DNA from: Frankiales bacterium
Lineage (GTDB): Bacteria; Actinomycetota; Actinomycetes; Mycobacteriales; SCTD01
Direction of reading: 5' to 3'
NCBI GenBank assembly: GCA_025965615.1
Contig: JAOPWP010000166.1
Location: 1-32,568, forward strand
Length of the DNA: 32,568 nucleotides
Shown one piece after another: positions 15,228-30,920 of the stretch. Every line of letters begins with the position of its first letter. Position 1 is the first letter of the stretch. Under the pieces are notes generated by a model. It saw only the letters and a list, made by a program, of their open reading frames with translations, was not told the DNA's origin and searched no databases. The position numbers and the translations under genes were made by a program.

Positions 15228-16165
15228 GTCTCGTCAGGATCGGCCGCGGTCCGACCGCCACCCGGCTGCACGTGCAGCGACAGGGTGACGGTGAGCCCCT
15301 GCTGTGGATCACCGGTTTCGCCATCAGCAGCGAGATCTTCTCGCCCGTGATCGACACCTACTCCGCCGACTTCGACTGCATCCGCTACGACAACCGGGGC
15401 GCCGGGCGCTCCGCAGCGCCCTGGCACGTCACCTCGATCCCCGAGCTGGCTGGTGACGCGGTCCGGCTGCTCGACGCGCTCGGCATCGACAGCGCGCACG
15501 TCTACGGGCTGTCGATGGGCGGGATGATCGCCCAGGAGGTCGCGATCCGCTTCCCCGACCGGGTGCGCGGGCTCGTCCTCGGGGCGACCAGCCACGGCGG
15601 GCCGCGCGCCGTCCTGCCCTCACCCAGGATCGCCGCCGCGCTGACCAGTCGGGGTGCTCCCGCTGCCCTGCGGGCCGAGCTCGTCGGCAAGGCGGTCTTC
15701 TCCGAACAGTTCCGCGAGCAGGAACCAGCCCTCGTCCTGCGCTACCTGAGGCTGCTGGGCCGGCACCGCACGTCGGCGCGCGGGCTGGTGAGCCACCTGA
15801 CGGCCTCGACCTACCACGACACGCGAGCGCGGCTGGGACGCATCACCGCTCCCACGCTGGTCATGCACGGCGAGGCCGACCAGCTCACCCCGGTGACCAA
15901 CGCCCGGCTGATCGCGGCTGCCGTTCCCGGCGCCGAACTCGCCGTGCTGCCCGGCGCCGGCCACGCCTACCTGCTCGAGCAGCCGGACCAGTCGCACCAG
16001 GTGTTCGACGAGTGGCTGACCCGCCGCTCCCCGATCCCCGCCGGCCCGCCCCTGACCGGGATCGCCGCCTCGACCGAGCCCCTCACGCGACATCTCGGCC
16101 TTGCTGTGGGCATGCTCCGCACAGGGCGCAGCCTGACCTCCGTCCGCCCCCGGCTCCGGCCCTGA
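15224..16165 (+). CDS. Alpha/beta-fold hydrolase
   Basis: A 313-residue serine hydrolase with nucleophile S97 in GLSMGG, D219 (HGEADQLTP) and H247 (GAGHAYLLEQP). The oxyanion region is near ITGFAIS (about 29-35), and the cap domain is about 125-205. The ATG at 15224 overlaps the PHA synthase TGA by four bases. The position immediately after phaC suggests an intracellular PHA depolymerase or a thioesterase, but the sequence is of the generic esterase/haloperoxidase-like group, so the substrate is inferred from context only. The C-terminal 45 residues extend past the fold and are Pro/Arg-rich. Confidence 0.85.
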   Translation: MSLVRIGRGPTATRLHVQRQGDGEPLLWITGFAISSEIFSPVIDTYSADFDCIRYDNRGAGRSAAPWHVTSIPELAGDAVRLLDALGIDSAHVYGLSMGGMIAQEVAIRFPDRVRGLVLGATSHGGPRAVLPSPRIAAALTSRGAPAALRAELVGKAVFSEQFREQEPALVLRYLRLLGRHRTSARGLVSHLTASTYHDTRARLGRITAPTLVMHGEADQLTPVTNARLIAAAVPGAELAVLPGAGHAYLLEQPDQSHQVFDEWLTRRSPIPAGPPLTGIAASTEPLTRHLGLAVGMLRTGRSLTSVRPRLRP

Positions 16166-16190
16166 ACCCCGACTCCTGAGGAGGCTCCAC

Positions 16191-16955
16191 GTGCGAGCCG
16201 AAGACGTGCGCAAGCAGCTGACGACGCCGATCGGCGCGCCGGCCTACCCGGCCGGCGGGGCGTACCGCTTCGTCGACCGCGAGTACCTCAACATCACCTA
16301 CCGCACCGATCCCGAGGCGATGCGGGCCGTCGTTCCCGAGCCCCTGACCGTCGGCGACCCGCTGGTGACGTTCGAGGTGATGAAGATGCCGGACGTCAGC
16401 GGACTCGGGGCGTTCACCGAGTCGGGGCTGGTGCTCACGGTCGAGCACGAGGGCGAGCCGGCGGCCTACCTGCACTCGATGTACGTCGACAACCTGGGGT
16501 CGATCGTCAGCGGCCGCGAGATCGGCGCGTTCCCCAAGAAGTTCGGCAGCGCCCGGCTGCACCTGGACGTGGACACCCTCGTCGGGACCCTCGACTACCG
16601 CAGTCTCCGGGTCGCCACCGCCACGATGGGCTACAAGCACAGGCGGCTCGACGAGGCCGACGCCCTCGCCGAGATCACCCGGCCGACCTACGCCCTCAAG
16701 CTGCTCCCCGGCTACGACCGCAAGCCGCGCATCTGCGAGCTGGTCAGGAGCCAGATCACCGACATCACCATCAAGGGCGCCTGGACCGGGCCGGCCCGGC
16801 TGCAGCTGTTCGACCACGTGATGGCCCCGCTGTCGGACCTGCCGGTCCTCGAGATCGTCTCGGCCAACCACATCCTGTGCGACCTGACCCTGGGCCGCTA
16901 CTCGCTCGTCCACGACTACCTGAACCCCGACGACAAGAGTGGAGACAGCGCATGA
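16191..16955 (+). CDS. Acetoacetate decarboxylase-family protein
   Basis: A 254-residue protein of the ADC fold, where acetoacetate decarboxylase removes CO2 through a Schiff base. The signature REIGAFPKKFG gives the lysine pair K116/K117, matching the catalytic K115 and its neighbour K116 of the clostridial enzyme. E77 (FTESG) matches the active-site Glu of that enzyme. So the decarboxylase machinery appears intact, but many ADC-fold members act on other keto acids or as aldolase-dehydratases. The GTG at 16191 has AGGAGG upstream. The 25-base gap from the hydrolase and the ATGA overlap into the hydratase place it in the same operon. Confidence 0.88.
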   Translation: MRAEDVRKQLTTPIGAPAYPAGGAYRFVDREYLNITYRTDPEAMRAVVPEPLTVGDPLVTFEVMKMPDVSGLGAFTESGLVLTVEHEGEPAAYLHSMYVDNLGSIVSGREIGAFPKKFGSARLHLDVDTLVGTLDYRSLRVATATMGYKHRRLDEADALAEITRPTYALKLLPGYDRKPRICELVRSQITDITIKGAWTGPARLQLFDHVMAPLSDLPVLEIVSANHILCDLTLGRYSLVHDYLNPDDKSGDSA

Positions 16956-17728
16956 CCGACGACACCCCGGTGCTGTACGCGGTCGACGGGCACGTCGCCA
17001 CGCTGACCCTCAACCGGCCCGACCAGCGCAACGCCGTGAGCCCCGAGCTGACCACGGCGATGGACGCAGCGCTGCAGCGGCTCGAGGCCGACGACGACGT
17101 GTGGGTCGGCATCCTGACCGCGAACGGGCCGAACTTCTGCGCCGGCGCCGACCTCAAGGCGATCGGCGCCGGGCGGTCGGCCGAGCTGTCCACCGAAGCG
17201 GGCGGGTTCGCCGGGTTCGTCCGCTACCCGCGCACCAAGCCGATGATCGCGGCGGTGCGCGGCTTCGCCCTTGCCGGCGGCACCGAGCTCGTGCTGGCCT
17301 GCGACCTCGTCGTCGCCGCGAAGGACTCGTTCTTCGGCCTGCCCGAGGTGACGCGGGGCATCGTCGCCGCGGCAGGCGGGCTGTTCCGGCTCCCCCGCGT
17401 CCTCGGCTCGGCGCGGGCGATCGAACTCATCCTCACCGCCGACCGGCTCGGCGCCGAGGAGGCCCACGCCCGGGGCATGGTCAACCACCTGGCGGACGCC
17501 GACGACGTCCTCTCTCGCGCCCGTGAGCTCGCTGACCGGATCTGCCAGAACGCCCCCCTCGCCGTGCGCGAGAGCCTCGCCATCGCCCGCGAGGCGCTGC
17601 TGCTGAGCGACGCCGACGCCTGGGAGCGCAGCGGCACGGCGATGGAGAAGGTCAAGGACAGCGCTGATGCCAAGGAGGGCGTGATGGCCTTCGTCGAGAA
17701 GCGACCCGCCCGGTGGACCGGGCGATGA
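16952..17728 (+). CDS. Enoyl-CoA hydratase/isomerase (crotonase family)
   Basis: A 258-residue crotonase-fold enzyme. The oxyanion-hole segments FCAGADLK (about 62-69) and ALAGGTE are present. The two acid/base glutamates of true hydratases are both there, E112 (GGTELVLACD) and E132 (LPEVTRGIV). It should add water across an enoyl-CoA double bond, producing a 3-hydroxyacyl-CoA. (S)- or (R)-specificity for PHA supply cannot be read, though the crotonase fold usually gives (S). The ATG at 16952 overlaps the ADC stop as ATGA, with GGAG seven bases upstream. Confidence 0.93.
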   Translation: MTDDTPVLYAVDGHVATLTLNRPDQRNAVSPELTTAMDAALQRLEADDDVWVGILTANGPNFCAGADLKAIGAGRSAELSTEAGGFAGFVRYPRTKPMIAAVRGFALAGGTELVLACDLVVAAKDSFFGLPEVTRGIVAAAGGLFRLPRVLGSARAIELILTADRLGAEEAHARGMVNHLADADDVLSRARELADRICQNAPLAVRESLAIAREALLLSDADAWERSGTAMEKVKDSADAKEGVMAFVEKRPARWTGR

Positions 17729-18981
17729 CCGGGGGCCAGTCGGGGACCGCGGACCGGGCGGGGACCGTGACGGCGATCGGGCGGCCGCTCGAGGGGGTGC
17801 GCGTCGTGGAGGTCGCCGGGTGGATGGCCGCTCCCGGCGCCGCCGCGATGATGTGCGACCTCGGGGCCGAGGTGGTCAAGGTCGAGCCCCTGCGCGGCGA
17901 CCCGATGCGGGGGGTCGTCCGCCGCGCCGACCTCGAGGACTTCGACCCTCCGTTCCAGATGGACAACCGGGGCAAGCGCGGGATCGCTCTCGCGCTGGAC
18001 CGTCCCGAGGGACAGGAGCTGGTGCGCCGGCTCGCCGACGGCGCCGACGTCTTCCTCAACAACCTCCTGGGCCGGCGGCAGCACAAGTTCGGCCTCGACG
18101 CCGACACCCTGCTCGCCCGCAACCCGCGGCTGGTCCACGGGACCCTCACCGGCTACGGCCTGGACGGTCCCGACTCGGCCCGGCCCGGGTTCGACATCAC
18201 GGCCTTCTTCGGCCGCGGCGGCATCACCCAGGCGATCACCGAACCGGGCAGCCAGGCTCCGAGGGCGCGACCGGCGCAGGGTGACCACGCCGCGGCCCTC
18301 GCCATGCTGGCCGCCGTGCTGACGGCGCTGCGCCTGGTGGAGCGCACCGGGCGGGGCCAGGTCATCGACGTGAACCTGCTCGCGACCGCCTCCTGGACGA
18401 TGGCCAGCGACCTGTCGTCCACCCTGGTCGACGGGCAGGACCCGCCGATGCTGGGTCGCCGAGGACGACGGCACGCCCTGCAGGAGAGCTTCCGGACGCA
18501 GGACGACCGGTGGGTCCTGCTGTTCATGCCCGAACCGCACTGGTGGCCGAAGTTCTGCAGCGCCGTGGGCCACCCCGAGTGGGCCGAGGACCCGCGCTTC
18601 GAGACGGTCGCGACGCGCTTCGAGAACATGCCCGTGATCACCGACCTGATGGACGAGCTGTTCGCCTCCAGGCCGCTGGCCGAGTGGGCTTCGCTGTTCG
18701 ACGAGGCCGGCTTCACCTGGGCTCCTGCGGCGACGCTCAGCGAGGTCGCCGCCGACCCGCACGCAGCAGCCGTCGGCACGTTCCCCGAGATCGAGCACCC
18801 GGTCCGCGGGACCTTCCGGACCGTCGCCCTGCCCATGACCCTGCGAGGCCAGGACCTCAGCCCGCGCGGCCCGGCCCCCGAACTGGGTCAGCACACCCGC
18901 GAGGTGCTCGCCGAGCTCGACCTGTCACCGGAGGAGATCGACCGGCTGGTCGCGGAGGGCACGGTGGCCGACGGGTCCTGA
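17725..18981 (+). CDS. Class III (CaiB/BaiF) CoA-transferase
   Basis: A 418-residue enzyme of the formyl-CoA/carnitine-CoA transferase family. N-terminal Rossmann-like fold: GRPLEGVRVVEVAGWMAAPG, then DLGAEVVKVEPLRGDPMR. The likely catalytic Asp is D157 in RPGFD. The later regions LPMTLRG and LGQHTREVLAELDLSPEEI are typical. Family members move CoA between carboxylates, or racemise 2-methylacyl-CoA. ATG 17725 overlaps the hydratase stop as ATGA; a GTG at 17713 is an alternative. It is the last gene of the rightward run and ends eight bases from the convergent dehydrogenase gene. Substrate unknown. Confidence 0.9.
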   Translation: MTGGQSGTADRAGTVTAIGRPLEGVRVVEVAGWMAAPGAAAMMCDLGAEVVKVEPLRGDPMRGVVRRADLEDFDPPFQMDNRGKRGIALALDRPEGQELVRRLADGADVFLNNLLGRRQHKFGLDADTLLARNPRLVHGTLTGYGLDGPDSARPGFDITAFFGRGGITQAITEPGSQAPRARPAQGDHAAALAMLAAVLTALRLVERTGRGQVIDVNLLATASWTMASDLSSTLVDGQDPPMLGRRGRRHALQESFRTQDDRWVLLFMPEPHWWPKFCSAVGHPEWAEDPRFETVATRFENMPVITDLMDELFASRPLAEWASLFDEAGFTWAPAATLSEVAADPHAAAVGTFPEIEHPVRGTFRTVALPMTLRGQDLSPRGPAPELGQHTREVLAELDLSPEEIDRLVAEGTVADGS

Positions 18982-18989
18982 CGCCGGCT

Positions 18990-19922
18990 TCAGCCGCCCG
19001 AGCGGAACCGCTCGCGGGCAGCCAGCACGGCCAGCTGGATCCCGTCGCGCTCCTCGGTGCGCTGGGCGTAGTCCTTGCCCGCGAAGCGCTGCTCGGTCGC
19101 CGTGCTGAGCTGGTCGACGACCTCGTCGGTGAGTTCGGGCTGCCCGAGGTCCTTCCACCGCTTCACCATGCCGGGACCGAGGTGCTCCAGCAGGTGCCGG
19201 ATGCCCCCCGGCCCCCCGCCGAGGTGGTAGCTCTCGAACGGGCCGGCGGTCGACCACCGGAGGCCGATCGACTCGGTCACGACCTGGTCGAGCTCCTCGG
19301 CCGAGACGACACCTGACATCACCAGGTGGACGCTCTCGCGGAACAGGGCCGACTGGAGGCGGTTGGCCACGAAGCCGCCGATCTCCTTGTGCAGGACGAC
19401 CGGGACCTTGCCCAGCGAGCGGTAGTGGGCGACGGCCGCCTCGACGGCCTCCGAGGTGGTCTGCGCACCCGGGACCACCTCGATGAGCGGTACGACGTGC
19501 GGCGGGTTGAACGGGTGACCCACGATGACCCGGCCCGGGTCGGTCATGTCGGCGGCCATGTCCGTCGGCATCAGCCCCGAGGTGGACGACAGCAGCAAGG
19601 CGCCCGGCGGGGCGGCCGCCTCGACCCGGGCGAACAGGTCGCGCTTGATCGCGAGGCGCTCCGGGCTGTTCTCCTGCACGACGTCGGCGCCGGTGACCGC
19701 CTGCTCGAGGTCAGCCGCCACGACGATCCGGCTCAGCAGGTCCTCGGCGTCGCGGGCTCCTCCTGGCACGGTGCGGGAGAACTGCCGCACGGTCTCGTCG
19801 ATCGTCTCCTGCAGGTCCTCTCGCGGGTCCTGCACGCGCACGTCCCACCCGTGCGCCGCCAGCAGCGTCGCCCACGACAGGCCGATGGTCCCGGCGCCGA
19901 GCAGCGCCGCGGTGCGGGTCAC
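18990..19922 (-). CDS. 3-hydroxyacyl-CoA dehydrogenase-family protein (carnitine/gulonate-type candidate)
   Basis: A 310-residue NAD-dependent dehydrogenase. The Rossmann site is GAGTIG (residues 9-14), the catalytic His-Glu pair is H136 (GHPFNPP) and E148 (LIEVV), and the C-terminal 6-phosphogluconate-dehydrogenase-like helical domain begins near residue 185. GLMPTDMAADM and GHPFNPPHVVPLIEVVPG resemble L-carnitine dehydrogenase and L-gulonate dehydrogenase more than the short butyryl-CoA enzymes, so the substrate may be a free hydroxy acid. GTG 19922 overlaps the upstream hydrolase's stop as GTGA. The longer frame upstream is antisense of no gene but lies within the hydrolase in another frame, so it is rejected. 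Confidence 0.88.
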   Translation of the reverse strand: MTRTAALLGAGTIGLSWATLLAAHGWDVRVQDPREDLQETIDETVRQFSRTVPGGARDAEDLLSRIVVAADLEQAVTGADVVQENSPERLAIKRDLFARVEAAAPPGALLLSSTSGLMPTDMAADMTDPGRVIVGHPFNPPHVVPLIEVVPGAQTTSEAVEAAVAHYRSLGKVPVVLHKEIGGFVANRLQSALFRESVHLVMSGVVSAEELDQVVTESIGLRWSTAGPFESYHLGGGPGGIRHLLEHLGPGMVKRWKDLGQPELTDEVVDQLSTATEQRFAGKDYAQRTEERDGIQLAVLAARERFRSGG

Positions 19923-20686
19923 GAGGACACCCCGGAAGGGGCGAGCCGGTTCGCGATCTCGCGGTAGGCATGACGGTTGAAGGCCATGCCCACGTGACTG
20001 CCTGTGAGCTCGACGCAGTCGGCGTACGGGACGACGCACGCCCTCCAGCGGACGACGCCGTCGCCCTTGCTGTAGAGGGAGGTCAGCGGGATCGAGGAGG
20101 GGAACGGCCGCCGGAAGTCGGTGGCGTACCGGCACACGCAGCTGTGCGTGAAGCAGCCCTTCGCGGCGCGGGCGGGGTCTCGGCGGGCGACCGCACGGCG
20201 GGCGCCCTTGATCGCGATCCGGGTCACCTCGGAGATGTCGAACGGGTCGTCCAGCCCTGCGCCCATCGAGATCACCTGCGACACCTGGTCGGGGCACCGG
20301 ATGGCGAGGCTCTTGGCGAAGTGGCCCCCTCGGCTGTGGCCGACGATCGCGACCCGACGCCCGGTCCGCAGGTGCACGTGGTGCAGGACCCGCTCGAGCC
20401 GGTCCATGGCGATGTCGGAGCACGCGACGTTGAACGAGATCCCGGCCCGGCGCGGGGCGTGCCCGAGGCGGCGCAGCCAGGCAGCCATCACCGACAACGA
20501 CTGGTCACCGGCGAGGAAGCCGGGGATCAGCAGCACAGGCGACCCGTCACCGCGGGGCAGCCCGACCCCGCGCCAGACCGGATCGGCCAGCAGCCGGGCC
20601 AGCTCGGCCTGCCAGCGCATCTCCCGCAGGTGGGTCCCCCACCACTTCGGCTCCGCCGGGACGGTCGCCGGTGATGCTCCTGTCAC
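19919..20686 (-). CDS. Alpha/beta hydrolase (triacylglycerol-lipase/PGAP1-like)
   Basis: A 255-residue serine hydrolase with GHSRGG (nucleophile S118), D209 (SKGDGVV) and H231 (GSHVGM). PVLLIPGFLAGDQSL at about 50-64 supplies the oxyanion region. There is no signal peptide, so it is probably cytoplasmic. Four cysteines at 178-185 and nearby (CFTHSCVC) are unusual. GTG 20686 with GGAGGA seven bases upstream is preferred; the open frame continues to 21178 only as a shadow of the glycosidase-like gene. The GTGA overlap with the dehydrogenase shows coupling. Substrate unknown. Confidence 0.85.
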   Translation of the reverse strand: MTGASPATVPAEPKWWGTHLREMRWQAELARLLADPVWRGVGLPRGDGSPVLLIPGFLAGDQSLSVMAAWLRRLGHAPRRAGISFNVACSDIAMDRLERVLHHVHLRTGRRVAIVGHSRGGHFAKSLAIRCPDQVSQVISMGAGLDDPFDISEVTRIAIKGARRAVARRDPARAAKGCFTHSCVCRYATDFRRPFPSSIPLTSLYSKGDGVVRWRACVVPYADCVELTGSHVGMAFNRHAYREIANRLAPSGVSS

Positions 20687-20748: not shown

Positions 20749-22875
20749 CTACGCCGGTGGTGCCACCGGTCGGCTCAGCTGCGACCAGGCGTCGACCAGC
20801 GGCTGGATGCCGGGCTTCAAGCGCTCCCGGTGGGAGGCGATGTTCCAACCGTCCCAGCCCACGACCCCTGACACCGTCCCGGCCTTGCCCGCGTCGACGA
20901 GGACCTTGATCTCCGGAACCTGGACCGCGACCGGCTGCCCGTCGACCGGCTGCACCGCGGTGTGGCTCGTCGGGTCCCCCAAGGCGAGCATCGACCACGG
21001 GATCCGCAGCCGGAGCGTCGTCCCGTTCAGCTGCCAGGTCGCCCGCGAGTCCTGCTGCGTCGAGCGCCGGTCCCACACGCCCTCCTTCAGGTCGCCGATC
21101 GGCAGGAACTCCGCGTCGAGCTCGCGTCCGTCCCGCAGCGTGAAGGGCCGGTTCGTCGTCATCTGCTGGAAGCTCCACCCGTCCGGCCCCGGCTTGGGGA
21201 CCGCGTCGGGTGGCAGGCCGTCCAGCAGGATCGGGTCGAGGTCGCCCCGGATGCGAGCCGTCGCCGTGCGGCGGCCCGGGTCGACGACGACGGAGACGTC
21301 CGAGGCGGACCCGCCCCCGCCACCGGGCAGCGGCAACCCGCCCGGGAGCAGGTCGAAGCCCAGCCGCAGGCGTTCCTTCGGCTTCTTCGCCAGCGACACG
21401 TCGACGTGGAGGTAGGAGGCGTCGTGGTCGACGGCCACCTCACGCACCCCGGTCCTCGCCTCGTACACCACCCGGCGCCCAACCGGTACGGGGTCCTCGG
21501 CGTTCAGGCCGAACCACTGCTCGTTCGTCAGCGGGTCGTGCCACAGCGACCGCCGCTCGCTGTCGACGACGCCATGTCTCGGCAGGGTGTTCCAGGTGAA
21601 CTTGAACCACTCGTCCGACCACGCGAAGATCAGGGCGCCCGCGAGGTCGAGGTCGGAGATGAGCCGTACCAGGTCGGCGTCGGTCGCGAGCGCGTCCTGC
21701 TCGGAGTGGTCGCCCTGGTCTCGCCCCCGCGTGCCGTAGTGCGCCGACCCGAGCGAGGACGGCACACCGACCTCGGTGATCATCAACGGCATGTCGGCGA
21801 AGTGCCGGTCGAGGTCGGCAAGGTAGGCCGCGTAGGCGTCCGGCTCCCCACCCACGAGCCTCGTCTGGTAGCCCGGCTCGTGCCGCAGGAAGTCCGGGTA
21901 GTAGGGGTAGGCGTGGAAGCTGGCGAACGTGCCCCCCGGCCAGGCAGCCGTGGGGCGTACGTGGTTCGCGTCGACGCCGACCATGTCCTCCGAGGCGAGC
22001 GGCTCGTGCGGGTGCACCAGCGGGTCCGCCGTGGGCCAGTTCACCAGCGCGATCGGCGCGCTGAAGCCTCGAGCCACCTCGGCCGTGGCCAGCTCGTCCA
22101 TGCGGGCCGCGACCCACCGCTCCGTCGGTGTCGTCGGGGTGGCGTCCGCGACGCTCGAGAAGTAGGTGCCGCGGTGCTCGGGTGCAGCGGCGTTGAGCGC
22201 GTCGGACTCGAAGGTCGCGGCCGGGTCCCACTCGACCCCGATGATCCACGCGGCGACCCACCTGGAGACGTCGGCTGTCCAGGTCCCGCTCGACCGCCCG
22301 AGCACGGGCGCTCGGGTGAGGTCGCCGTGGACGGCGTCGCTGGCCGCCTTGAGCTCCACGGTGAACGCGTCCGTGGCCGGCTTCGCGTAGAGGTCGCGGG
22401 TGTGCACGTAGGACTCGTCCGGGATGTAGACGCCCTGCATGAGGTAGAGCGGCGCGTCGGGGTGCGCCTCGTTGTAGGACAGCAGTTCCTCGTACATGTG
22501 AGGCTTGTGGATCGTGTAGATGCGGAGCACCCGCACGCCCATGCGACCCATCTGGTCGAACCAGCGGCGGTAGTCCTCCCGGCTGATCTCGAGCTCGCCC
22601 GGGCTGTACCCGGGAGTCGTGCTGCCGAGGTTGACGCCGGTCCAGAACGTGACGTCGCCGGACACCGTGTGGAGGGCGATGCGCTTGCCCTGGCTCTCTG
22701 CGAGCGTCGTCAGACCTCCCCGCTGCACGGGGGCCGGTGCCCAGGACGGGCCGGCAGGCGGCGGCACGTAGGCGCTCGGATCGACCCAGGGCTCCACCCG
22801 CTCGTAGGTCGCGAGCCCGAGCCCCAGGACCAGCAGGAACAGCGCGACGACGAACGCGCTGGCACGGCGGAGCAT
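20749..22875 (-). CDS. Membrane-anchored TIM-barrel glycoside hydrolase-like protein
   Basis: A 708-residue protein with an N-terminal signal anchor (about 5-23, AFVVALFLLVLGLGLATY) that places the bulk outside the cell. Residues about 50-450 look like a clan GH-A (beta/alpha)8 barrel: FWTGVNLG, MGRMGVRVLRIYTIHKP, IIGVEWDP, SFHAYPYYPDF, and MITEVGVPSS, whose Glu is a likely nucleophile. The C-terminal about 240 residues are beta-rich and lack a barrel. I cannot name a GH family. The ATG at 22875 opens the signal anchor; AGGAGAGGA lies about 13 bases upstream. It is divergent from the Hpt-REC/HEAT/glycosyltransferase group, so it may trim or process the glycan made by that synthase. Confidence 0.75.
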   Translation of the reverse strand: MLRRASAFVVALFLLVLGLGLATYERVEPWVDPSAYVPPPAGPSWAPAPVQRGGLTTLAESQGKRIALHTVSGDVTFWTGVNLGSTTPGYSPGELEISREDYRRWFDQMGRMGVRVLRIYTIHKPHMYEELLSYNEAHPDAPLYLMQGVYIPDESYVHTRDLYAKPATDAFTVELKAASDAVHGDLTRAPVLGRSSGTWTADVSRWVAAWIIGVEWDPAATFESDALNAAAPEHRGTYFSSVADATPTTPTERWVAARMDELATAEVARGFSAPIALVNWPTADPLVHPHEPLASEDMVGVDANHVRPTAAWPGGTFASFHAYPYYPDFLRHEPGYQTRLVGGEPDAYAAYLADLDRHFADMPLMITEVGVPSSLGSAHYGTRGRDQGDHSEQDALATDADLVRLISDLDLAGALIFAWSDEWFKFTWNTLPRHGVVDSERRSLWHDPLTNEQWFGLNAEDPVPVGRRVVYEARTGVREVAVDHDASYLHVDVSLAKKPKERLRLGFDLLPGGLPLPGGGGGSASDVSVVVDPGRRTATARIRGDLDPILLDGLPPDAVPKPGPDGWSFQQMTTNRPFTLRDGRELDAEFLPIGDLKEGVWDRRSTQQDSRATWQLNGTTLRLRIPWSMLALGDPTSHTAVQPVDGQPVAVQVPEIKVLVDAGKAGTVSGVVGWDGWNIASHRERLKPGIQPLVDAWSQLSRPVAPPA

Positions 22876-23018
22876 GGTGGGGCGCTTCCTCTCCTGGCCC
22901 CGCGAGCGGACCGGCGTCGACGTCGCGGGAGCGAGGTGTGGGATGAGCCTCGGCGCGCGCACCCACGTCCTGAAGTCGCCGAACGGCCTAACCGGCGGCG
23001 TCCGGCGGCGTCGCGACG

Positions 23019-23048
23019 CTCAACCCGGCGCCCGAACGTACCGAGAAC
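23019..23048 (+). promoter_or_regulatory. Possible sigma-28 (FliA/WhiG-type) promoter
   Basis: CTCAA at 23019-23023 and CCGAGAA from 23041, 17 bases apart, resemble the -35 and -10 of motility-type sigma factors (TAAA and GCCGATAA in the textbook form). The element is 53 bases before the Hpt-REC start. The match is imperfect at both elements, and no sigma gene is in the window. A tandem GGCGGCGTC repeat lies just upstream at about 22995-23013. Confidence 0.25.
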
Positions 23049-23100
23049 AGCGGAGCAGGGAGCCCCCCTGCGCCGAACGGGATGCAGGAGGCCGGTGGGC

Positions 23101-23925
23101 ATGTCGCACGCTCCCGCCATGCCGGCGGCGATGGCCGCTGCGATGGCGGGCCTCGCCGTCGACGCCAAATCCTCTCTGATCGCGCAGGTCGACGCTGTCG
23201 AGGCGGTGGCCGTTCGCGCACTGCAGTCCCCGGTGCCCGTGCACGACCCCGAGCGGGTCGATGCCCTGCGCTGTGCTCATCGCGTGGCCGGGACGGCAGG
23301 AGCCTTCGGCTGGCACGAGGCGTCGGCGCTGCTGCGGGAGGCGGAGGCGCTCCTCGAGGCGGACGGACCGCTGGACGACGACGCTGCTGTGGCCTTGTGC
23401 GAGCTGGTCGAGACGGCACGCGGGGACCTCGCCCGGCCCCCCTCGCCTGGTGACGGCACGATCCCGCAGCAGCAGGGGCCCCCCGCCTTCGCGCCCCTCG
23501 AGCCCCTGGCCACGCCGCCTTCCGCTCCTGACGCCCAGGCTGCCACCGTCGACGTCGTCGTGGTGGAGGACGACCTGATCCTCGGGGCCCTGCTGTGCCA
23601 GGTCGTCACCGACATGGGGCTCTCGGTCCAGCACTGCGAGGACGGGGTCAGCGCCCTCGGGCTCCTGGCGGGCGCCGAACCGCTGGCGCGCCCGCGCCTG
23701 GTCCTGCTGGACATCGACCTGCCGGGGCGCTCGGGCCTGTCGGTCCTGCGGGTGCTCCAGCGGGACCGGGTCACGCGGTCGGCGTCGGTCATCATGCTCT
23801 CGTCCCGGTCCGGTGCCGACGACCGCGAGCTGGCCACGGAGCTCGGCGCGACGTCGTTCCTGTCCAAGCCGTTCGCCATCCGCGACGTGACAGACCACCT
23901 GCAGCTGCTGGTGCGATCGCCATGA
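23101..23925 (+). CDS. Hpt-REC phosphorelay protein
   Basis: A 274-residue cytoplasmic protein that fuses two phosphorelay parts. An Hpt-like histidine phosphotransfer domain lies at about 15-115, with H60 in AHRVAGTAGAFG, the normal HxxxGxAxxxG pattern with Ala for Lys. After a Pro/Gln-rich linker (about 113-148), a receiver domain at about 149-272 has E156/D157/D158, phospho-acceptor D204 (LLDIDLPGRSG) and K256. It has no output domain, so it probably signals by binding a partner. The ATG at 23101 has AGGAGG nine bases upstream. The HEAT-repeat and glycosyltransferase genes follow within 13 bases and by overlap, so the partner is likely that membrane pair (inference). Confidence 0.88.
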   Translation: MSHAPAMPAAMAAAMAGLAVDAKSSLIAQVDAVEAVAVRALQSPVPVHDPERVDALRCAHRVAGTAGAFGWHEASALLREAEALLEADGPLDDDAAVALCELVETARGDLARPPSPGDGTIPQQQGPPAFAPLEPLATPPSAPDAQAATVDVVVVEDDLILGALLCQVVTDMGLSVQHCEDGVSALGLLAGAEPLARPRLVLLDIDLPGRSGLSVLRVLQRDRVTRSASVIMLSSRSGADDRELATELGATSFLSKPFAIRDVTDHLQLLVRSP

Positions 23926-23938
23926 GCCGACAGCCGTC

Positions 23939-25012
23939 GTGACGCTGCTCGACCTGCTGGTCGCCGCAGCCGTCGCGCTGGCCGGCTCGCTGGTGCTGAT
24001 GGTGGTCGTGCTGCTGGTGCACGGCGCCTTGAAGGACGCCAGGGACGCGCGCGACCAGGTGTGGCTGGCGCGCGTGCACCAGGCCCTGCTCGCCCCGCAC
24101 GACGACAACCCGTTGCGGGCGGCGTCCCGGCGCCGGCACTCCCTCGCCCTCGCCACGCTCGGTCAGCACGTCACCGGGGGGCAGCGCGACCTGCTGCGTG
24201 CCTGGGCCGCCGACGTCGGTCTGGACCGCTGGGCCCGCCGCAGCACCCGGGCCCGGCGCGGGACGGTCCGGGTGGCTGCCGTGTCGGCGCTGAGCACGCT
24301 CGGGATCGAGGACGACGTCAGGGTCCGGGCCTGCCGGGACCGCAACGCGCGGGTACGGGGATGCGCCGCCGAGAGCGACTTCCTCAGCGCGTCGCACAGC
24401 CGGATCCTCGCCCTGATCGCCCTGACGACCGACCCGTCGCCGCGCGTGCGCTTCGCCGCCCGAGACAGCCTGGCCCGGCTGGGTGGGGTCGTCGCGCCGT
24501 CCCTGCTGCCCTACCTCGACAGCCCCGACCCCGCCGTCGCCGCAGCCGCTCTCGACGTCGCCCAGACGACCCCCCACCCGGTGCTCCTGCCGATGGCCCT
24601 GCGCCTGTCCGGGTCGGACCGGCCGGTGCCGGAGCGGTTGCAGGCGCTCCGGCTGCTGTCCCGCCTGGAGTGCCCCGAGCGGGTCGCCGTCCTCCGGGAG
24701 GCCCTCGCCGACGAGAGCGCCGACATCCGGGTGGCAGCCGCCGACGGGCTGCGCAGGGCCCAGGCGAAGGCAGCCGCCGGCGTGCTCGCCGAGCGGCTCC
24801 GCGATCCTGCCTGGGAAGTGCGGCGAGCGGCTGGGCAGGCCCTGGTGAGCCTCGGCGCCGTGGGCCTGGCGCTGCTGCGGGCGGCGGTGCGCAGCGACGA
24901 CCGGTACGCCGTCGACATGGCCCGCACGATGCTGAACCTGCCACCCGTCCCCGAGGAGGAGGAGGCACCGGCCGTCCTGGTTTCCGCATCGGGCTGGCAG
25001 GTGGCGTCCTGA
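23939..25012 (+). CDS. Membrane-anchored HEAT-repeat protein
   Basis: A 357-residue protein. One N-terminal membrane helix (about 5-29, LLVAAAVALAGSLVLMVVVLLV) is followed by a cytoplasmic solenoid of alpha-helical HEAT repeats. Several repeat units are recognisable, such as DPSPRVRFAARDSLARLG, ADESADIRVAAADGLRRAQ and DPAWEVRRAAGQALVSLG, and the chain ends in an acidic segment (EEEEAP). Such solenoids bind protein partners. GTG 23939 is the only reasonable start; no clear Shine-Dalgarno is seen. It lies between the Hpt-REC gene and the glycosyltransferase, whose start overlaps its stop. It may link the receiver to the synthase (inference). Confidence 0.85.
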   Translation: MTLLDLLVAAAVALAGSLVLMVVVLLVHGALKDARDARDQVWLARVHQALLAPHDDNPLRAASRRRHSLALATLGQHVTGGQRDLLRAWAADVGLDRWARRSTRARRGTVRVAAVSALSTLGIEDDVRVRACRDRNARVRGCAAESDFLSASHSRILALIALTTDPSPRVRFAARDSLARLGGVVAPSLLPYLDSPDPAVAAAALDVAQTTPHPVLLPMALRLSGSDRPVPERLQALRLLSRLECPERVAVLREALADESADIRVAAADGLRRAQAKAAAGVLAERLRDPAWEVRRAAGQALVSLGAVGLALLRAAVRSDDRYAVDMARTMLNLPPVPEEEEAPAVLVSASGWQVAS

Positions 25013-26493
25013 ACGTCCTCGAGGTCCTCCAGCAGGGGGCGATCCTCCTCACGCAGGCCCTGGCGTACGGCTTCGCGTTGTTCGTCCTCGTCTACTTCCT
25101 GTGCGTCAACGGGTTCACCACGCTGCTGCTCGCCTGCGCGACGGTGAACCTGCGCGTGCACTTCCTGGCAGCGAGCGCCCAGCGTCGCAACCTGCTGCTG
25201 TCCTCCCCCGTGCTGCCGAGGATCAGCGTGCTCGCCCCCGCCTACCGCGAGCAGGACACGCTCGTCGCGTCCGTGACGGCCCTGCTGACGCTGTCCTACC
25301 CGGCCCTCGAGGTCATCGTGGTGAACGACGGCAGTCCCGACCTCACCATGGAGCGGCTCAAGGAGGGCTTCGACCTGGAACAGGTCCCGTTCGCCTTCCG
25401 GCGGCAGGTGGACACCAAGGCGGTGCGCAGCGTCTGGCGGTCCCGGCAGGACCCCCAGCTGCTGGTGGTCGACAAGGAGAACGGCGGCAAGGCCGACGCG
25501 CTCAACGCCGGGCTGAACCTCGCCTCGGGAGACCTCGTGTGCGCCATCGACGCGGACACGCTCATCGAGCCCGACGCCCTGCTGCGCATGGTGCGCCCGT
25601 TCCTGAGCTACGACGGGTGCCTCGCCGTGGGCGGGACGATCCGGGTCGCGAACGGCAGCGCCGTCCGCGACGGCCGTGTCTTCGAGGTGCACACACCGCG
25701 GAACTGGCTGGCCGGCATCCAGAGCGTGGAGTACCTGCGGGCGTTCCTGCTCGGACGGCTCGGCTGGAACAGCCTGGGCGGGAACCTCATCATCTCCGGG
25801 GCGTTCGGCCTGTTCCGTCGCCAGGCGGTCCTCGACATCGGTGGCTACCTGCACGACACGGTCGGCGAGGACATGGAGCTGGTCGCCCGGCTGCGCAACC
25901 ACGCGCCGCGCGGGGGCCCCAGCACGGTGCGCTTCGTCCCGGACCCGGTCGCCTGGACCGAGGTGCCTGAGTCGCTGAAGGACCTGGGCCGGCAGCGCGA
26001 CCGCTGGCAGCGCGGTCTCACCGACGTGCTCCAGCGCTACCGGGGGTCGATCTTCAACCCCCGCAAGGGCCGGCTCGGGATGGTCATCTACCCGTACTTC
26101 CTGCTCGTGGAGTGGCTCGCCCCGTTGGTCGAGGGGCTGGGGCTGATCTTCCTGGCCGCCGCCCTGCCCTTCGGCATGATCAGCCCGCAGTTCGGCCTGG
26201 CGTTCTTCGTCGTCGCCTACTTCTACGGCATCCTGCTGTCGCTCTGGTCGGTGATGATCGACTCGATGGCCTTCCCCGACAAGCACACGCGCAAGGGCGA
26301 CCTGCTGCTCGTGCTGTGGGCCGTCCTGGAGCAGTTCGGCTACCGGCAGTTCACGATCGTCTGGCGGGTGCGGGGCATGTGGCGCCAGCTCCGCTCCCAG
26401 ACGCTCGAGTGGGGCGAGATGACCCGCAAGGGCTTCGGCCCGTCAGCCACGAGCGTCCCCGCGCCGCGCGCGCCGGCCGAAGCGCCGGGCTGA
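25009..26493 (+). CDS. Processive family 2 glycosyltransferase (polysaccharide synthase)
   Basis: A 494-residue membrane glycosyltransferase of the cellulose/hyaluronan synthase type. Two N-terminal hydrophobic segments lie at about 12-46. The GT-A domain has NDGS (D107), DAD (181-183), ED (287-288) and QRDRW (329-333), the D-DxD-ED-QxxRW set of processive enzymes. Three or four membrane helices follow from about 355 to 425. No PilZ domain is present, so any c-di-GMP control would be indirect. There is no ATG, GTG or TTG before the N-terminal helix. CTG 25009, overlapping the HEAT stop as CTGA and preceded by AGGTGG, is the best start; the next TTG at 25078 would cut into the helix. Confidence 0.88.
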   Translation: MNVLEVLQQGAILLTQALAYGFALFVLVYFLCVNGFTTLLLACATVNLRVHFLAASAQRRNLLLSSPVLPRISVLAPAYREQDTLVASVTALLTLSYPALEVIVVNDGSPDLTMERLKEGFDLEQVPFAFRRQVDTKAVRSVWRSRQDPQLLVVDKENGGKADALNAGLNLASGDLVCAIDADTLIEPDALLRMVRPFLSYDGCLAVGGTIRVANGSAVRDGRVFEVHTPRNWLAGIQSVEYLRAFLLGRLGWNSLGGNLIISGAFGLFRRQAVLDIGGYLHDTVGEDMELVARLRNHAPRGGPSTVRFVPDPVAWTEVPESLKDLGRQRDRWQRGLTDVLQRYRGSIFNPRKGRLGMVIYPYFLLVEWLAPLVEGLGLIFLAAALPFGMISPQFGLAFFVVAYFYGILLSLWSVMIDSMAFPDKHTRKGDLLLVLWAVLEQFGYRQFTIVWRVRGMWRQLRSQTLEWGEMTRKGFGPSATSVPAPRAPAEAPG

Positions 26494-28124: not shown

Positions 28125-30920
28125 TCACCCGAGCTCGGGCAGCCGCAGCTCGGTCGCCGGCACGGCCTGGCCGTAGAGCCAGCCCTGGGCCACGTCGACG
28201 CTCAGTGCCCGCAGGCGCTCCGCGACAGCCGCTGTCTCGACCCCCTCGGCAACGACGTCCAGACCGATCGAGTGCGCGAGGGCGACCACGCCGCCGACGA
28301 TCGCCGCGTCGCGCTCGTCGAGGTCGACGTCGCGGTTGAAGGCCCGGTCCAGCTTGAGCCGGGAGACGGGCAGCGTCTGCAGGTAGCTCAGGGCGGAGTA
28401 GCCGGTGCCGAAGTCGTCGATCGAGCAGCGGATCCCAGCCGCGGCAAGGCGCTCCACCGCCCTGCGGGCACGCTCGTCGACCAGCGCCGACTCGGTGAGC
28501 TCGACGGTCAACGTGCCGTCGGCTCGCAGCAGCTCCTCGCGGAGTTCCGAGATCCCGCCGGCTGGGCGCAGAGCCAGGGCCGAGATGTTGACGGCGACGG
28601 TCCCGGGCCAGCCCTGCGCGCGCCAGGTCCGCCCCTGCCGGGCGGCGGCGCGCACGACGTAGCGGGTGAGGCTGTGGACGAGGTCGGTCTGCTCGACGAT
28701 CGGCAGGAACTCCTCCGGGAGCAGCAGGCCCCGACTGGGGTGGTGCCAGCGCACCAGTGCCTCGACCTCGACCAGCCGCTCGGTCTCGAGGTCGACGAGG
28801 GGTTGGTAGAACAGCTCGAGCTGGCCCGCCGACAGCGCCGTGCGCAGCTCGGCGAGCAGGCTCAACCGCTCGGCTCGCTGGCTGTCGAGACCGCCGTCGA
28901 ACAGCGCCCAGCCGCCACGCTCCCCCTTCGCGCGGTACATGGCCATGTCGGCCGCCTGGAGCAGCTGCTCGACGTCCTCCCCGTCCTGCGGCGCCAGGGC
29001 GATGCCGATGCTCCCGGAGAGCGTCACCTCGATGCCCCTCAGCGTGAAGGGCTCTGCGACGGCGCCCACGACCTCCTCGGCGATCCGGGTGACAGCCGAG
29101 GCGTCACGGAAGTCGCTGATGCAGAGCCCGAACTCGTCCCCGCCCAGGCGGGTCACCGTGGTGCGCTCACCGCCCACCCCGCGCAGTCGCTGGCCGAGCT
29201 GCGCCAGCACCTGGTCGCCCGCGCCGTGCCCGAGGGCGTCGTTGACGTCCTTGAAGTCGTCCAGGTCGAGCAGCAGCAGGGCCAGCGGGCGGGGCCCGCT
29301 CTCGCTGGTGAGAGCGGCCGTCACCAGCTGGAGCAGGTGCAGCCGGTTCGGGAGTCCCGTGAGTGCATCGGTCGTGGCCTGGCGGAGCGTCCTCGCCGCC
29401 GCTTCGGCGCGTTCCACCGCAGCGGCGAGCAGGGTGGCCATCGTCTGGAGCAGGTCGACCTCGACGGTCGACCACTCGTCGACCCGGGGGCTGTGCGCGG
29501 TGACGGCCCCCCAGACCTGGCCGTGCACGATGACGGGCACGAGCACCCCGCTGCGCATGCCGTAGAGCTCGAACACCTCGGGGGCGTCGACGTCCCCTGG
29601 TTCCAGGTAGTCCCTCACCAGCACGGGGCGGGCTGTCTCGGCGAGCCGGGTGAGGCCCGAGACCGGCGTCGTGCCCAGCTGGCGTCCGAGGGAGCCGGAA
29701 TCGCTGCCGCCGAGGACCAGCCAGGTGCCGTCGTGCAGCCGCTGCAGGATGCCGGCAGCCGTCGAGGGGAGCAGCTCCGACACGGCCGTCCCGGCGCTGA
29801 CGAGCAGCTCCGGCAGCGAGGCGCTCAGAGCGGTCGCACTGACGCGGGCGAGGACGGCTTGCTGATGGGCGCGCATGGCCAGGCGCTCGTTGGTCTGCCG
29901 CTCCTCGGTGACGTCCCGGACGGTGATGACGACCCCCTCGACGGCGGGGTCGTGCAGGAGGTTGTTCGCGATGATCCAGAAGCGGCGCACCTCGCCGTGC
30001 CCGTTGACCGCCTTGACCTCACCCGGCGCCGACACCCCGGGCGTCTGCATCACCGCCTGCCACGCCTCGAGGGCTGAGGCGCGGTAGGGCTCCAGCACGT
30101 GCTGCATCAGGTCGGTGCTGACCTGCTGCCCGAAGGCCATCCGACCCGCAGGCGAGGCGTAGCGGACCCGCCCGTCGCGGTCGGTGAGCAGCAGGATGTC
30201 CGAACTGTGCTCGACCAGCGCCAGGGCCTGTGCCCGGCTCGCGCGGGCGGCCGCGAGCAGCGTGGCGTTGTCGACGGCGAGGGCGACCCGCTGGGCCAGG
30301 GCGTCGACGAGCCGGCGATCGTCCGCGCCGATGCGGGCGTTCCCGCGCGCCACGAGCATGAGCCCGAGCTCGTGGCCCCGGGCCGACAACGGCACGGCGT
30401 AGAGCGAGGTCGCGGAGAGGTTCGCGGCGCCGTCGCGCAGGACGGCGACCCGGGAGATCACCTCCGCGATCCGCTTGCGCCCCTCGAGGTGGAGCGGCCC
30501 CCACCCGAGGACCTCCCGCAGCCGTCGAAGCCCTTCGTCGGACGGTGACAGCGCCCCCACGAAGCCCCGGAGCAGCGCGTCGACCTCCTCGGTGGGGTGA
30601 GCCGCCGCCGCCTGCCCGACGTTCTCGGCGTCGGTCGGGTCGAACAGCCAGACGACGCAGCCCGCGGACAGCTCCCCGGCGACCGCGGCAGCGGCGGCGC
30701 GCAGCACGTCGGCCGGGCGGTCGATCGCCTCGTCGCACCCGGCACCGACCGCCAGGAGCGCGCGCTCACGGCGCGCAGCACTGCTCCTGGTCGACCGGTC
30801 GACCGACCGCCTGCCGTCCGACCTGAGGGCGTACGGGACGGGCGCGCCTTCGGGGGTCGGCCGCTGGAGGCCCGGATCCACCACGGGGACGCCGCCGCCT
30901 CCCGGGTGAGGCCGCCTCAT
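28125..30920 (-). CDS. GAF-PAS-GAF-GGDEF-EAL c-di-GMP signalling protein
   Basis: A 931-residue cytoplasmic protein without membrane helices. GAF-like region about 70-220, PAS about 230-345, second GAF about 365-505, GGDEF about 510-675, EAL about 685-925. The cyclase site GGDEF (593-597) is intact, with [10 protein letters not shown] before it. The inhibitory RxxD site five residues upstream is absent (R586 but Val at 589). The phosphodiesterase has EAL (720-722), [11 protein letters not shown] (856-858) and AEGVET, so both activities may work, or GGDEF may act as a GTP sensor. ATG 30920 has GAGGTGG upstream. It sits between guaB3 and guaA, the genes of GMP formation. The input domains probably bind a small ligand. 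Confidence 0.93.

Follow-up and report, generated by a model that had tools for sequence, protein, structure and literature searches.

What do four neighboring genes in the genome of a Frankiales bacterium make together, and how is their activity controlled? The genes lie in a stretch of 32,568 nucleotides (contig JAOPWP010000166.1 of assembly GCA_025965615.1), and "the window" below means this whole stretch. Three of them, encoding a receiver protein, a HEAT-repeat protein and a glycosyltransferase of family 2 (GT2), are read in one direction; the fourth, encoding a putative glycoside hydrolase (GH), is read in the other. A first-pass annotation, made from the sequence alone, had proposed that they form a single functional unit. 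We found that the four-gene neighborhood is a conserved unit that occurs in both Actinomycetota and Bacillota. We consider it probable that this unit is a synthase-dependent surface polysaccharide system of Gram-positive bacteria, in which the GT2, HEAT, receiver and GH proteins act in the steps proposed below. The genes concerned, and one neighbor, are as follows.

20749-22875, minus strand: putative membrane-anchored hydrolase of GH-A fold, 708 amino acids, with an N-terminal transmembrane (TM) helix, predicted to be extracellular
23101-23925, plus strand: receiver protein with a weak Hpt match and no output domain (Pfam), 274 amino acids
23939-25012, plus strand: HEAT-repeat protein, 357 amino acids, with one N-terminal TM helix and a solenoid predicted to be cytoplasmic
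25009-26493, plus strand: predicted processive GT2 polysaccharide synthase, with a likely CTG start at 25009
28125-30920, minus strand: GAF-PAS-GGDEF-EAL protein, beyond guaA; a possible cyclic di-GMP (c-di-GMP) neighbor of uncertain membership

We found that the HEAT and GT2 genes are paired almost universally. A GT2 profile, built mostly from loci chosen by GH, was searched against 396 Actinomycetota genomes and detected an ortholog in 61 of them. For neighborhood counts, 52 GT2 loci were fetched from the Actinomycetota sample. A HEAT gene was directly beside the GT2 gene, on the same strand, in 50 of the 52; the other two loci are cut by a contig end, and adjacency was therefore 50/50 among loci with enough flank. 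In contrast, none of 27 loci that encode other GT2 enzymes, taken from the same bacterial family and with only 1.5 kb of flank, had a HEAT match. The first-pass annotation had asked whether homologs of these genes are neighbors in related genomes, and these counts indicate that they are. Results were similar for HEAT in a second sample, in which GH had served to choose the genomes and 30 GT2 loci were examined (HEAT 30/30, receiver 28/30), and in a third, 22 Bacillota GT2 loci (HEAT 22/22, receiver 12/22). Some loci occur in several of the three samples, and the counts are not additive.

The other two genes were frequent neighbors. A receiver gene was found within 2 kb of the module in 38 of the 52 Actinomycetota loci, and GH was close to GT2 in 16/52. 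When the GH protein was used to scan the genome collection, 66 loci were retrieved from Actinomycetota and Bacillota; GT2 and HEAT, and usually also a receiver gene, were beside GH in approximately 20 of them.

GH also co-occurs with GT2 when the two genes are apart. GH was present in 25 of the 396 Actinomycetota genomes, all of which (25/25) also carry GT2 (hypergeometric P about 3e-23). GH adjoined GT2 in 19 of these genomes and was unlinked in 6. We also searched 31 genomes because they carry GH, in most cases without an adjacent GT2; GT2 was present in 28. The three GH genomes without a GT2 ortholog are syntrophic Firmicutes (L094, L096 and L104) with a different GT2 nearby, accompanied in L096 and L104 by multi-TM proteins.

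Several loci contain two of these proteins in a single open frame. We found HEAT-GT2 frames in L176 and, in Bacillota, in L272 and L273; GT2-GH frames in L078, L183 and L186; and in L191 a frame joining GT2 to a degenerate GGDEF domain. The fused frames stem partly from draft metagenome contigs. Of the evidence at hand, these sequences hint most strongly that the proteins are physical partners.

Close relatives lack the whole block. Two same-genus genomes keep both of its flanks, an alpha/beta-hydrolase gene (match ending near 20657) and guaA (from 26518), and have other DNA between them (1.4 kb in L284 and 6.0 kb in L286). Five window proteins, including the GGDEF-EAL protein, had no match when queried in six same-genus stretches. 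Because the flanks are kept and the block is absent, we conclude that all four genes, GH among them despite its opposite direction, were gained or lost as one block. Taken together, the conserved neighbors, the co-occurrence even of unlinked genes, the fusions and the absence of the whole block in relatives support the functional unit that had been proposed.

We made several further observations at this site. In L286 (3504-9253) the slot between the alpha/beta-hydrolase gene and guaA is filled by other genes, one of which resembles, by eye, a DNA cytosine methyltransferase; the slot is apparently a hot spot for insertions. Next to the module, the window contains enoyl-CoA hydratase-like, CoA-transferase-like and 3-hydroxyacyl-CoA dehydrogenase genes (16152-19951) that are absent from two same-genus genomes. 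The matches flanking this region almost abut there, which indicates a second lineage-specific insertion. In a same-family relative (G013), only broken pieces of GT2 and GH with internal stops were found (L036, 9384-9953; L037, 7425-7772), and it seems that this module is decaying or that the draft is faulty.

The four genes are as first described, including their order, their strands and the 13 bases between the receiver stop and the HEAT start. The 4-base overlap reported for HEAT and GT2 (CTGA, 25009-25012) holds if GT2 starts at CTG 25009; no ATG, GTG or TTG start gives it. The next in-frame start of these three kinds is a TTG at 25078, within the first TM helix. In the relative L035, GT2 starts with GTG at the same position of the overlap. 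Judged from these sequences, CTG 25009 is the likely start codon.

We found that the GT2 protein has the features of a processive synthase, as had been suggested. It matches Pfam Glyco_tranf_2_3 (4.8e-23), and D107, D181/D183, D288 and Q329-R330-x-R332-W333 are invariant in a 23-member alignment. An AlphaFold2 model (mean predicted confidence, pLDDT, 88) had hyaluronan synthases as its best Foldseek matches (E about 1e-14), followed by BcsA and chitin synthases. Based on these motifs and the predicted fold, GT2 is probably a processive polysaccharide synthase. A Pfam scan detected no PilZ domain in GT2, and the chain ends approximately 30 residues past the last helix, mostly at low confidence. 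The poly-N-acetylglucosamine synthase PgaC/IcaA is similar in size and gives the best NCBIfam match (TIGR03937). However, the score is 145 bits against a cut-off of 422, and no PgaB-, PgaD- or IcaB-like gene is among the four; we rejected assignment of GT2 as a PgaC/IcaA equivalog. Cellulose synthase (BcsA/BcsB/BcsZ) likewise combines a processive GT2 fold with a synthase-associated hydrolase. It differs in that the window GT2 has no PilZ domain, no BcsB-like gene is among the four, and the window GH is of GH-A type and not GH8.

The HEAT protein is probably membrane-seated, with its solenoid in the cytoplasm. Its repeats match Pfam HEAT_2 (54.9 bits against a cut-off of 27.7; 1.1e-14) and HEAT (48 against 23.5). 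Positive charges follow the TM helix in 50 of the 53 HEAT relatives that have one. Because of these charges, the positive-inside rule predicts a cytoplasmic solenoid, on the same side as the receiver and the GT2 catalytic domain. This agrees with the membrane-anchored solenoid of the first-pass annotation. Profile matches in the PDB were to artificial alphaRep scaffolds and the PP2A scaffold, and these fit a scaffold role. A bilin-lyase-type or NblB enzyme was considered and rejected (NblB score 27 against a cut-off of 300). The near-universal pairing and the fusions suggest that the HEAT protein is an obligate partner of GT2.

The receiver domain of the window protein is clear (Pfam Response_reg, 4.7e-18). 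The acceptor aspartate is kept in 50 of 57 receivers encoded beside the module, and the lysine is invariant. The two residues singled out earlier, D204 as the predicted phospho-acceptor and H60 as the Hpt histidine, are both present and correctly numbered. The Hpt match (1.1e-4) scored 22.8 bits, under the cut-off of 24.6, and the nearest relative, L035, has neither a Pfam Hpt match nor a histidine at the site. Across relatives we found many lone receivers as well as Hpt-REC, GGDEF-REC and longer forms, the window protein being a short Hpt-REC. In the Hpt-receiver fusion described earlier, the conserved part is the receiver, which has no output domain, and not the Hpt half. As Hpt is not conserved among relatives, we rejected the idea that the design centers on an Hpt-based phosphorelay.

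Some relatives are unusual in their signaling proteins. Receivers with glutamate in place of the acceptor aspartate (L073, L076, L085, L101, L109 and L203) are possibly locked in an active-like state. In one Actinomycetota clade (L168, 290-5948), a hybrid kinase (six PAS domains, HisKA, HATPase, two REC domains and Hpt) and an intact REC-GGEEF cyclase are encoded beside the module; this kinase is a candidate for the cognate kinase.

For the fourth protein, the predicted structure supports the GH-A-like glycosidase that had been guessed at from sequence. Its AlphaFold2 model (pLDDT 90.5) shows a barrel with E215 at the end of strand 4 and E368 at the end of strand 7 (numbered from the ATG). Both residues are invariant in a 42-member alignment, and they are probably the catalytic pair. 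The best Foldseek match was GH157 (E 5.5e-13), followed by GH2, GH5 and the GH39 protein PslG. None of the 42 members matched a Pfam or NCBIfam family, and the PDB contained no profile-level sequence match. We therefore did not file the protein under GH157, to which the likeness is one of fold. The endo-beta-1,3-glucanase LaGH157 has the nearest solved fold, but its identity to the window GH is approximately 10%. The GH157-like fold hints, weakly, that the product may be a beta-glucan. Two loci had additional hydrolase genes. One Micrococcales metagenome genome has two GH genes in tandem (L044, 4464-9266). In L196 (10156-12390), a protein that combines DUF5719 with a GH17-like part is encoded beside receiver-less HEAT-GT2-GH genes, a possible further link to beta-1,3-glucan.

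We propose the following mechanism. GT2, judging from its motifs and fold, would polymerize sugar on the cytoplasmic side and thread the polymer through its own TM channel. The membrane-seated HEAT protein would contact the GT2 catalytic domain with its cytoplasmic solenoid, as the pairing and the fusions suggest. The receiver would dock on this solenoid, and its phosphorylation state would switch synthesis on or off; a kinase or phosphorelay encoded elsewhere would phosphorylate it. In relatives, a GGDEF domain may provide an added route of control. Outside the cell, the membrane-anchored GH, to judge by its fold, would cut or trim the polymer made by GT2.

Several results weigh against this proposal. 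A receiver gene was not found within 2 kb in approximately one quarter of the 52 loci. The acceptor aspartate is replaced by glutamate in 6/57 receivers and by glycine in 1/57, which indicates that phosphorylation is not universal. GGDEF or EAL genes were within approximately 3 kb of the module in 21/52 loci, a raw count with no background rate for comparison. This count would fit an alternative in which the HEAT-GT2 pair is the real unit, under general c-di-GMP control, with the receiver as one of several interchangeable inputs and, in the window, the nearby GGDEF-EAL protein as a possible source of signal. We regard this alternative as a tentative one that deserves real weight. The window GAF-PAS-GGDEF-EAL protein has strong matches (Pfam GGDEF 9e-42, EAL 1e-63) and an intact GGDEF motif. 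Degenerate GGDEF domains are found inside receiver proteins (L084, L097, L184, L185, L188 and L190), and the clade with the intact REC-GGEEF cyclase and the GT2-GGDEF frame of L191 point the same way. In the Bacillota loci L262 and L264, a GGDEF domain is encoded upstream of HEAT and no receiver was detected in the flank. However, Pfam detected only Hpt and REC, and no GGDEF domain, in the window receiver protein; guaA separates the GGDEF-EAL gene from the module; and across the loci a receiver is found more often than GGDEF. From these sequences, phosphorylation is probably not the sole input, as c-di-GMP domains are often beside or inside the receiver protein in relatives.

The place of GH was also considered. 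GH is missing from 36 of the 61 GT2 genomes, which indicates that it is not obligatory, and where present it may be unlinked (6/25). Tree distances of GH and GT2 were more weakly correlated (0.45) than those of HEAT and GT2 (r = 0.83), in both cases as raw values that ignore species relatedness. GH might act outside this pathway, as a wall or matrix hydrolase that only accompanies the cluster. We think this unlikely, given that GH genomes nest within GT2 genomes (25/25 and 28/31) and that GT2-GH fusions exist. It is also rather improbable that the product of GT2 is a short glycolipid or a wall-polymer decoration and not a long secreted polysaccharide. The weakness of the PgaC_IcaA match would fit such a product, but the Q-R-x-R-W motif is invariant and the fold is closest to hyaluronan and cellulose synthases. 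Finally, the module is patchy within its own family and lies in a variable slot, as might be seen if the neighborhood were due to chance or to a mobile island without functional coupling. The neighborhood counts contradict this explanation, the same neighbors recur in Actinomycetota and Bacillota, and there are three kinds of fusion; we consider it very improbable.

The proposed polysaccharide system would work like other synthase-dependent exopolysaccharide (EPS) systems, for which the closest Gram-positive models are ydaJKLMN, pssA-E and the ccs operon. B. subtilis ydaJKLMN encodes a putative EPS synthase together with YdaK, which has a degenerate GGDEF domain, and Listeria pssA-E is a c-di-GMP-dependent exopolysaccharide operon whose PssE binds c-di-GMP (PMC7064775, PMC4125290). 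Like these operons, with their GGDEF c-di-GMP receptors, many relatives of the window have a degenerate GGDEF domain beside the synthase. In contrast, the available portions of those accounts describe no HEAT partner or receiver control, and a GGDEF domain is absent from the window receiver protein. The clostridial cellulose synthase operon ccsZABHI also pairs a GT2 with a cognate GH-A hydrolase (CcsZ, GH5), but that hydrolase is of another family by sequence, and HEAT is not among the genes named in the available part of the account (PMC7710045). In Clostridium perfringens NELoc-2, a gene table lists CP4_0467 (HEAT, 377 amino acids) adjoining CP4_0468 (a "chitin synthase" GT2, 466 amino acids), with relevance called unclear (PMC2879425). 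Judged by description and size, this is probably the same HEAT-GT2 pair, with the difference that its neighbors are CotH and VTC genes. We found no description of a HEAT, synthase and receiver system in the open-access literature, and an earlier account elsewhere is possible. We are evenly divided on a stronger proposal, that the module represents an unnamed synthase-dependent family in Actinomycetota and Bacillota, in which HEAT is an obligatory regulatory subunit that takes post-translational signals directly from a stand-alone receiver, c-di-GMP modules are interchangeable, and the hydrolase belongs to a new GH-A family particular to these systems.

In the known synthase-dependent systems, c-di-GMP does the gating by way of PilZ, PgaD-like or degenerate GGDEF partners. 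The synthase described here is accompanied almost invariably by a HEAT solenoid, and its commonest neighbor is a receiver without a DNA-binding output. Such a receiver, if the proposal is true, would put phospho-signaling directly on polymer synthesis. GH marks a hydrolase family that has no Pfam model. Among the sampled genomes, approximately 15% of those from Actinomycetota and 9% of those from Bacillota had HEAT-GT2-type pairs. The module suggests a function for the pairs of "HEAT repeat protein" and "chitin synthase/glycosyltransferase" in Gram-positive genomes, very probably including the C. perfringens pair left unexplained in NELoc-2 (PMC2879425).

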